From Pseudomonadota bacterium (GTDB taxonomy: Bacteria; Pseudomonadota; Gammaproteobacteria; Steroidobacterales; Steroidobacteraceae), in assembly GCA_947449495.1 (NCBI GenBank), contig CANFSB010000010.1, positions 1 to 48,109 on the forward strand: a DNA stretch of 48,109 nucleotides. Direction: 5' to 3'. The first letter of the stretch is position 1; each line of letters begins with the position of its first letter. The translations under genes were made by a program, and so were the position numbers. Below are positions 39,209-41,440 of the stretch, one piece after another. The notes under the pieces are model-generated. The model was given only the letters and a program-made list of their open reading frames with translations. It was not told the DNA's origin and searched no databases.

Positions 39209-39396
39209 ACGTCACCTGCGGTGTTCGACAAGTGGCTCGGGTTACCTCGGACCCTAATTGAAACACCCAGGGGCCAGGCCATCCGACAGCATTGTGCATG
39301 TCCGCCTTGTGCGGGGAGTCTTACCTGTCTTGGCCTGCCCCACCTGTTGCTCCGGTTCGAGAGCAACGATCCGCACCGGCATCTGCGGGTGACGTC
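39209..39396 (+). ncRNA. ssrS: 6S RNA
   Basis: About 188 bases between zapA and fau, the usual place of 6S RNA in gammaproteobacteria. The ends pair perfectly: GACGTCACC (39209-39217) with GGTGACGTC (39388-39396), forming the closing stem. A long irregular stem with a central bubble is plausible inside. TACCAT at 39196-39201 ends 7 bases before the proposed 5' end and fits a -10 box. 6S RNA mimics an open promoter and holds sigma-70 RNA polymerase in stationary phase. The ends are set by the stem and could shift by a few bases. Confidence 0.88.
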
Positions 39397-40026: not shown

Positions 40027-40491
40027 ATGAACTACTGGCTGCTCAAGTCGGAACCGTCGGTGTTCTCCATCGACGCACTCGCAGCGGCGCCGCGCAAAAC
40101 CACGCACTGGGAAGGCGTGCGCAATTTTCAGGTCCGCAACATGCTGCGCGACGACTTCAAGAAGGGTGATCTGGGCTTCTTCTATCACTCGTCCTGTGCC
40201 GAGCCAGGCATCGCTGGCATCGTCGAGGTAGTACGCTCAGGCTATCCAGATGCTTCTGCCTGGGATTCTCGCAGCGAGTACTACGATGCTAAAAGCACTG
40301 AAAACAAGCCTCTTTGGTACTGTGTTGATGTAAAGCTTGTACGTCGTACCAAGCGCATCATCACTCTCGACATGCTGCGCATGCACGCCGAGACACAACT
40401 CAAAAGCATGTTGTTGCTACGCCGTGGCAACCGCTTGTCGGTCACGCCAGTCGATGAATCGCATTGGGAGTTCGTCCTCTCCCTCGAGTAA
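40027..40491 (+). CDS. EVE domain-containing protein
   Basis: A 154-residue protein nearly fully covered by one EVE domain (PUA-like fold): MNYWLLKSEPSVFSIDAL, THWEGVRNFQVRNML, KKGDLGFFYHSSC, GIAGIVEVVRSGYPD and SHWEFVLSL. Similar to human THYN1 and bacterial stand-alone EVE proteins, which are proposed to bind modified nucleic-acid bases; the ligand here is unknown. It begins 12 bases after fau, a conserved neighbour in many proteobacteria. Confidence 0.93.
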   Translation: MNYWLLKSEPSVFSIDALAAAPRKTTHWEGVRNFQVRNMLRDDFKKGDLGFFYHSSCAEPGIAGIVEVVRSGYPDASAWDSRSEYYDAKSTENKPLWYCVDVKLVRRTKRIITLDMLRMHAETQLKSMLLLRRGNRLSVTPVDESHWEFVLSLE

Positions 40492-40527
40492 GCGACACCC
40501 ACGAGCAAAAAAAAATTGCAAACACAC

Positions 40528-40559
40528 TTGCTTGTAAATTACTAACGCGTGTATATACT
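40528..40559 (+). promoter_or_regulatory. Strong promoter of the lysine-rich peptide gene
   Basis: Overlapping solutions: TTGCTT (40528-40533) with an 18-base spacer to TATATA (40552-40557), or TTGTAA (40532-40537) with 16 bases to TATACT (40554-40559). An A-tract (40507-40515) lies upstream like an UP element. The stretch is clearly AT-rich compared with its surroundings. Confidence 0.65.
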
Positions 40560-40591
40560 CAACCCCGGACTAACCCTAATGGAGAACTCTC

Positions 40592-40642
40592 ATGGCGAAA
40601 GCCAAGAAGAAGGCCAAGAAAAAGGCCGCTAAGAAGAAGTAA
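40592..40642 (+). CDS. 16-residue lysine/alanine-rich basic peptide
   Basis: The ORF encodes MAKAKKKAKKKAAKKK: ten Lys, five Ala, no acidic residue. GGAG (40581-40584) is 7 bases upstream of the ATG, ideal spacing. A promoter with an A-tract lies before it, and two hairpins (40648-40687, 40701-40724) after it. It resembles the repeat units of bacterial histone H1-like tails, but is far too short to be such a protein. It could bind nucleic acid or ribosomes, could be a by-product of a small RNA, or could act by ribosome pausing on the Lys run. Expression is inferred from signals only. Confidence 0.65.
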   Translation: MAKAKKKAKKKAAKKK

Positions 40643-40647
40643 CTTCG

Positions 40648-40687
40648 AGGTGACGGCGAGTTGATCTCAAGTCTTCTCGCCCCACCT
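40648..40687 (+). other. Extended RNA hairpin after the lysine-rich ORF
   Basis: AGGTG (40648-40652) pairs with CACCT (40683-40687), and GGCGAG (40655-40660) pairs with CTCGCC (40676-40681), leaving a 15-base loop that itself holds TTGA..TCAA. It starts 5 bases after the stop codon. No T-run follows. This may be a functional part of a small RNA or a 3' protective element. Confidence 0.55.
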
Positions 40688-40700
40688 ACAAGATACTCAA

Positions 40701-40724
40701 CTGTGCCCGCGAAAGCGGGCACAG
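40701..40724 (+). terminator. Terminator-like hairpin with GAAA loop
   Basis: CTGTGCCCGC, GAAA, GCGGGCACAG: a perfect 10-bp stem with a GNRA tetraloop, followed by TCGTTTAAAG, only a weak T-tract. It would end the transcript begun near 40566, about 160 bases long, before rpiA. Confidence 0.75.
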
Positions 40725-40759
40725 TCGTTTAAAGTCCCTTGTTTTCCGGTGTCCCGCGC

Positions 40760-41440
40760 ATGAGCACATCTTCCGACAGTCAGCAGTTGCGTAAGCAGCG
40801 CGTCGCTGCAGCAGCAGTAACCGAACTCACCGAGGGCATGATCCTTGGTGTCGGTACCGGTTCCACAGTCAACGCCTTCATCGATGCTCTGGGTCCTTGG
40901 GCCGAGCGATTGGCTGGTGCCGTGTCGAGTTCCGAAGCATCCACCACCAAGCTGCGCGCACTGGGCATACCCATACTCGACCTCAACGACACCGACGGGC
41001 TGGGCCTGTACATCGATGGTGCCGATGAGACCAACGCCGATCTGCAACTGATCAAGGGTGGCGGGGCAGCGCTCACACGCGAAAAAATCATCGCCGCTGC
41101 TGCAGCACGCTTTGTTTGTATCGTTGATGAAAGCAAGCTGGTCACCACATTGGGCAACTTCCCGTTGCCGGTCGAGGTCATCCCGATGGCGCGCAACCTG
41201 GTAGCCAGGCAGTTGCTGCTGCTGGGTGGGCAGCCTCGCTGGCGTGAAGGTGTGGTCACCGACAACGGCAATCACATCCTCGATATACACGGCCTGCACA
41301 TCACCGATCCGATCACTCTCGAGCAGCGCATCAACCAGATCACCGGAGTGGTCGCAGTGGGTCTGTTTGCCGCACGACCAGCCGATCTGCTGTTGATCGG
41401 CACTGCCGACGCAGTGCGACGCATCTCGCGCAGCAGCTAA
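40760..41440 (+). CDS. rpiA: Ribose-5-phosphate isomerase A
   Basis: A 226-residue enzyme interconverting ribose 5-phosphate and ribulose 5-phosphate. Motifs are [57 protein letters not shown] (catalytic Asp and Glu/Lys region), [11 protein letters not shown] and [11 protein letters not shown] 40760 is used; a TTG 7 codons upstream is in frame but adds nothing conserved. It provides substrate for nucleotide synthesis and, in reverse, ribulose 5-phosphate for KdsD. Confidence 0.96.

Follow-up and report, generated by a model that had tools for sequence, protein, structure and literature searches.

A family-wide gene of Steroidobacteraceae in front of rpiA encodes a 14-30-residue Lys/Ala peptide, most likely an extremely shortened H1-like protein

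Introduction

Lysine-rich proteins of the H1-like type differ in length through their repeats, and to our knowledge it is an open question how small such a protein can get and yet be retained. A known representative is Hc2, the bacterial histone H1-like protein encoded by Chlamydia hctB, which has relatives in Bordetella and Burkholderia (Pfam PF07382). The DNA analysed here (the window), a stretch of 48,109 nt from a member of the Steroidobacteraceae, contains a very short lysine-rich ORF between an EVE-domain gene and rpiA, which raises the question whether this ORF is a gene and, if so, what its product might be. A previous sequence-only reading of the window had described the locus as a self-contained transcription unit for a small peptide, possibly a dual-function small RNA, and had been unable to name a family for it. 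In the open-licence PMC literature, we found no paper on this peptide unit.

Results and Discussion

Organization of the locus

The following features were identified, in order along the + strand:

40027 to 40491, + strand: EVE-domain gene (Pfam PF01878), Pfam-confirmed upstream neighbour of the peptide unit
40532 to 40559, + strand: promoter, TTGTAA (40532-40537), 16 nt, TATACT (40554-40559), read directly and found in a promoter scan
40566 to 40591, + strand: 5' leader CGGACTAACCC..GGAG, with the Shine-Dalgarno sequence GGAG at 40581-40584
40592 to 40642, + strand: ORF for the short lysine-rich, H1-like peptide MAKAKKKAKKKAAKKK, read directly and conserved in relatives
about 40648 to 40687, + strand: hairpin 1, variable, from folding and comparison with relatives
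40700 to 40725, + strand: terminal hairpin with an 11-bp stem and a GAAA (GNRA) loop, found in 96/96 units
40726 to 40730, + strand: weak U-tract CGTTT after the terminal hairpin
40760 to 41440, + strand: rpiA (Pfam PF06026), Pfam-confirmed downstream neighbour of the peptide unit

Direct reading agreed with most of what had been described. The ORF encodes 16 residues, ten of them lysine and five alanine, GGAG is well spaced at 7 nt 5' of the ATG at 40592, and the G+C content is 0.45 over 40500-40699 compared to about 0.60 in the surroundings. Two points needed correction: the upstream A-tract is present at 40507-40515, 5' of the promoter, but is missing from most of the relatives shown, and the GAAA-capped hairpin exists with a stem of 11 instead of 10 bp. 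In the promoter scan, TTGTAA/TATACT was scored as one promoter-like site, with a mean of 0.2 in shuffles, and the position of the -10 element would place the transcript start near 40564-40567. Compared with its own shuffles, the 170-nt segment that starts at 40566 folds 6.6 SD lower. In the entire window, the peptide ORF is the sole ATG ORF in the 12-79 aa range whose lysine content reaches 50%, and 20 base shuffles of the window yielded none. The GAAA-capped hairpin ends about 30 nt 5' of rpiA; a terminator scan did not call it on the + strand, where its U-tract is poor (CGTTTA), and called only the - strand side. An Rfam search with the window and the unit returned no match for the unit over the gathering score, the best sub-threshold E-values being 0.6 and 8.2. 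The same search detected a tRNA and, at 39210-39395 on the + strand, 6S RNA (RF00013, 75.4 bits), whose neighbours on either side were identified by eye as fau and an ORF resembling ZapA.

Occurrence in Steroidobacteraceae

The peptide unit is a real, conserved gene that occurs throughout the Steroidobacteraceae. In a survey of 100 genomes of the family anchored on rpiA (at least 90% complete; one locus being that of G023, L208, and 98 others analysed together), the unit was present in 97, absent from one and unreadable in two, corresponding to 97 of 98 readable loci. The unreadable loci were those of G063, where the match is preceded by 39 nt, and G094, with only the end of rpiA. The single absence is a real loss: in L277 (genome G297), the EVE stop codon lies about 40 nt from the rpiA start (L277 640-690). 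A DNA search of 60 genomes recovered the unit in 34 of the 36 other members of the family, and the two misses, G015 and G034, are genomes of 74% and 82% completeness. A pattern made of the -10 region plus leader had an exact match in 95 of 150 family genomes, almost always at a single place, against 0 matches for the reversed pattern, and a promoter/leader scan of a public genome collection gave at least 120 stretches carrying it. In relatives that share the gene order, the ORF and the terminal hairpin have both been retained. The description as a self-contained transcription unit holds; the unit is conserved and its peptide ORF is real.

Unit counts given here rest on selection by a neighbouring gene (EVE or rpiA anchor), whereas other sets were picked by promoter and leader. 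The leader-selected set comprised 156 units among the matches listed; L118, which contains N, was dropped and identical sequences were collapsed to 114. No hairpin is seen in six of the 156 units; each of these stretches stops either short of it or inside it. Loci L326-L328 lie outside the analysed sets.

In 4 of the 95 matching genomes (G026, G149, G165 and G171), the promoter/leader pattern occurred at two places, several of them at contig ends, which is probably assembly overlap and not two genes. The unit was also present in GenBank records titled Candidatus Planktophila lacus (L045) and Janthinobacterium lividum (L083); these bins look mislabelled or contaminated. Among 11 loci of the genus designated g19, all kept the unit, with EVE seen in three, not found in six and two stretches too short; the six (L284, L300, L301, L302, L303 and L318) have no EVE in the approximately 800 nt fetched around the rpiA start.

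Promoter, leader and hairpins

The promoter context GCTTGTAA(T/A)TT...TGTATATACTC is conserved, with a -10 region that is near-identical across the family and recognisable in other families of the order. That leader and promoter might be shared with other genes was considered and rejected, as genomes contain the full pattern about once each. In the window's own genome, the leader 10-mer alone was found at 2 places, as was its reversed control, and the hairpin core at 3 places versus 1 for the control.

The 6-bp core GCCCGC/GCGGGC of the terminal hairpin is invariant by construction, since the search pattern demands it, and conservation of the structure is better judged from the outer stem. Among 44 different stems, 225 of 264 outer cells can pair, compared to a mean of 181 and a maximum of 197 in 1000 shuffles. 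Compensatory changes were found in these outer pairs; changes on both sides occurred at five of six positions and unpaired cells at four of six, counts that are inflated by relatedness. GNRA loops close 86 of the 96 terminal hairpins, and the T-tract is poor: in 79/96 units, the 8 nt that follow the stem contain no more than four T. The terminal hairpin is probably the 3' end of the transcript or a partial terminator.

The spacer between stop codon and hairpin core measured at most 23 nt in 13 units, 24-45 nt in 18 and at least 50 nt in 65 (n = 96). Hairpin 1 is variable and, because it is lacking in one clade, is by this comparison not essential. The end of the hairpin core lies a median of 42.5 nt (range 2-110) 5' of the rpiA start, as positioned by protein alignment, and in many genomes there would be little room for a separate rpiA promoter.

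Long H1-like proteins in the same slot of sister families

A search anchored on EVE covered 59 genomes of the order, of which 46 had a match and 40 of these lay outside the family; 39 of the 40 were examined and G182 (f7) was left out. Directly after EVE, a K/R-rich ORF (more than 33% lysine plus arginine, preceded by GGAG) was present in 28 of the 39 loci, and 11 of the 13 other families surveyed had such a slot ORF (f2, f3, f4, f5, f6, f8, f9, f10, f11, f14 and f16). In 19 of the 28 loci, rpiA is the next gene, and the other nine stretches end first. No K/R-rich ORF followed EVE in the remaining 11 of 39 loci, namely three of four in f6, where EVE and rpiA are 11, 11 and 148 nt apart, and all eight of f7 and f13, where the rpiA motif was not found after EVE in the fetched stretch.

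With one exception, the 21 complete slot ORFs measure 94-209 aa, the 94 aa of L187 probably resulting from a frameshift. The exception is L177 (f10, genome 73% complete), in which a stop codon occurs after 26 codons while the K/R-rich reading continues, indicating a broken gene or an assembly error. H1-like repeats such as KKKVAKKK, PAAKKK and TRKKATRKK are found in the long forms, which are preceded by TGTATATACTC-like and CGGACACCCGACACGGAGA-like sequence (common pattern TGTATATACTC / CGGACxxCCCGACA-GGAGA). The upstream stretch CTGGAATTTT...GTGTATATACTCG...CGGACACCCGACACGGAGA of the sister families resembles CTTGTAATTTG...GTGTATATACTCC...CGGACTAACCCGACATGGAGA of Steroidobacteraceae, with a larger departure in f11 and f16. 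When the leaders of 30 of 89 family units were locally aligned with 24 others, the median score was 24, compared to 13 both for shuffles and for an upstream control; the separation is not clean, as only 68% of the pairs scored above the control's 95th percentile and the top control pair reached 65.

Beyond the order, L192 (family f55) has a 74-aa form whose promoter is of the same type. Of 90 genomes with a match, 28 class-level rpiA loci lying outside the family were read, and this was the only slot ORF among them; in L195, L199 and L204, also among these 28, EVE is near rpiA without such an ORF.

In model searches with the long forms, L179 matched Pfam HC2 with an E-value of 3.7e-9 and 37.4 bits, below the cut-off of 40, and with 61.3 bits, over the cut-off, in the genome search, and it reached 20.1 bits against a cut-off of 80 with the NCBIfam H1-like model. 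Seven of the eight long forms searched had no match in Pfam and seven of eight none in NCBIfam, and matches of low-complexity sequence need care. The 16-mer is below the 20-aa limit of these searches. At the level of whole genomes, PF07382 gave 0 matches and hence no second H1-like gene in the window's own genome, whereas HC2 matches were present in 3 of 19 family genomes (G001, G006 and G011), in 1 of 14 control genomes and in several genomes of other families.

Peptide sequence and selection

In rpiA-selected (n = 96) and leader-selected units, the peptides are 14-30 aa long with a single exception of 61 aa. All 96 end in KKK and 82 in KAAKKK, lysine accounts for 60.5% and alanine for 31.8% of the residues, and GGAG precedes the ATG by 6-10 nt in 93 units; starts were ambiguous in L258, L264 and L278, which have two nearby ATGs. 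Arginine is nearly excluded from the family peptides, whereas several long forms of sister families contain up to 24% arginine. EVE and RpiA offered too few lysine columns (1 and 5, with arginine shares of 0 and 3%) as a yardstick for this preference.

The pN/pS ratio was 0.076 for 16-mers (15 different ORFs), 0.000 for 17-mers (7), 0.159 for 21-mers (25) and 0.333 for 22-mers (13), with a pS of about 0.6 per site between different peptide ORFs. In 34 loci, synonymous divergence at lysine codons was 20.2% in the peptide ORF, 22.4% in EVE and 22.9% in RpiA, and at alanine codons 44.5%, 52.6% and 58.6%, respectively. Because same-codon changes are close to those in EVE and rpiA, the protein is the conserved layer, and by this measure selection acts on the peptide. 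Such a comparison of peptide codons and hairpin pairs across relatives had been proposed in the sequence-only reading; it has now returned protein-level selection together with compensatory changes in the terminal hairpin.

These data bear directly on the idea that the transcript is an abundant small RNA with the peptide as secondary or second product, which we regard as unlikely. Beside the ORF, conservation is good in the leader CGGACTAACC and in the terminal hairpin, codon choice is position-specific (e.g. codon 11 is AAA in 39 of 44 16-mers) and alanine codons show slightly fewer changes than their counterparts in the flanking genes, leaving room for a mild constraint on the ORF at the RNA level. 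However, the ORF has in other respects accumulated synonymous changes to nearly the same extent as its neighbours, hairpin 1 is free to vary and dispensable, and neither the window nor the unit search assigned the unit to an Rfam family. Because a similar leader precedes a protein of 94-209 aa in other families, leader and hairpin can be read as ordinary mRNA 5' and 3' ends. With selection at the protein level, the proposal of a dual-function RNA was not upheld.

Still less probable is a role as leader peptide, in which ribosome stalling on lysine codons would control termination at the hairpin and thereby rpiA expression. The hairpin with its weak U-tract, the short distance to the rpiA start and the presence of 1 arginine versus 1107 lysines in the 1829 residues of the 96 peptides would suit such a device. 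RpiA is a pentose-phosphate gene and not a lysine gene, though, and an antiterminator was not found: upstream pairing of the 5' arm of the hairpin did not exceed that in base shuffles (median z +0.99, with 4 of 96 units below -2). Alanines and the KKK end are moreover conserved as residues, and the ORF extends to 61 aa in one genome and to 94-209 aa in sister families. Attenuation of rpiA is thus disfavoured: no antiterminator was found, and the gene downstream does not belong to the pathway of lysine, the amino acid that would be sensed.

That the ORF is the non-functional stub of a decayed H1-like gene would be compatible with the family-wide loss of the repeat array and with outright loss of the ORF in L277 and in three of four f6 loci. 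We consider this highly improbable, given that nearly every readable genome retains promoter, Shine-Dalgarno sequence, frame, KKK end and hairpin, with a synonymous divergence between different ORFs of about 0.6 per site.

A probable miniaturised H1-like protein

We therefore favour, with a probability of roughly 0.7, the interpretation that the unit is a gene for a miniaturised syntenic ortholog of the long H1-like slot protein, a small Lys/Ala polycation. The slot protein of the sister families thereby supplies the likely family that had been reported as missing. Low complexity prevents linking the 16-mer to the long proteins by sequence alone, and orthology is instead suggested by slot (EVE - ORF - rpiA in both groups, with rpiA seen in 19 of the 28 long-form loci and the other stretches cut), by similar promoter and leader, and by the composition of the ends, several long forms ending in KKK. 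The GCCCGC..GCGGGC hairpin is likewise found in many sister-family loci. In these families, a hairpin followed by TTTT was found in 12 of 18 complete loci, but as the pattern demands T's, the contrast to the weak T-tract of Steroidobacteraceae is only suggestive. The long forms also differ in often containing Arg, Thr, Pro or Val.

In the proposed course of events, the repeat array would have contracted in the ancestor of Steroidobacteraceae, leaving roughly the two ends MA(K/T/A)KKKA ... KKAAKKK, with one later re-expansion to 61 aa. Ancestral contraction is the simplest reading. A tree of EVE alone, with 45 rows (L280 had no usable row), required three changes for the short-form family f1 and is too weak to show it as one clade or to prove the direction.

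PMC2848022 describes Hc2 as a DNA-binding H1-like protein of 165-237 aa that changes in size by whole repeat units. Both Hc2 and the unit peptide are lysine-rich low-complexity chains, the latter dominated by lysine and alanine like the class as a whole. In contrast to Hc2, the unit peptide has no repeat array and almost no arginine, and its gene is located before rpiA; a long chain of tandem lysine-rich repeats, as seen in the slot proteins of sister families, is missing at 14-30 aa (61 in one case). A second comparison is offered by AlgP (AlgR3) and the C-terminal KPAA tail of PhaF from Pseudomonas, also a gammaproteobacterium, which are Lys/Ala-rich disordered polycations as well. AlgP consists of a helical N-terminal domain of 124 aa and a KPAA repeat region of 154 aa, whereas the 16-residue peptide lacks a domain and has almost no proline. 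In PMC9239181, AlgP, with its lysine-rich H1-like tail, is reported to associate with polyphosphate granules and described as DNA-binding, and KPAA-repeat peptides to bind DNA in vitro.

As for the mechanism, a promoter of the sigma-70 type, in which G+C-rich sequence follows the -10 element, would produce a short transcript of about 160 nt that ends at the GNRA-capped hairpin, while some transcription would continue into rpiA. Such a G+C-rich segment immediately 3' of the -10 element is reminiscent of stringently controlled promoters. Expression would be strong, the peptide would be translated, and with its ten lysines it may bind polyanions, namely DNA, RNA or polyphosphate, without sequence specificity, as proposed by likeness to the lysine-rich tails of AlgP, Hc2 and H1. 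Size, charge and an apparently strong promoter might also suggest a ribosome-bound basic peptide by analogy to bTHX or Sra of E. coli, but these have a fixed length and mixed Arg and Lys, and a length of 14-61 aa with repeat proteins as orthologs makes such a function very doubtful.

Going beyond the miniaturised ortholog itself, and with the odds somewhat against it, the family may have exchanged an H1-like protein of 100-200 residues for a free-standing, lysine-specific peptide of 14-30 residues with a KKK end that still does the job. It might then be among the shortest genome-encoded agents condensing the nucleoid (or polyphosphate or RNA), and a leaky hairpin could allow one promoter to set both polycation supply and rpiA expression.

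Together with its sister families, this family-wide gene, which is far below the usual length limits of annotation, forms a natural length series that runs from some 200 residues down to 14, all in one slot and behind similar promoters. With this length series, the minimal length at which a disordered polycation functions can be tested directly. Within Steroidobacteraceae, the single 61-aa version, in L245 with the same peptide in L140, contains KAKVKTKAKA repeats and probably represents one re-expansion.
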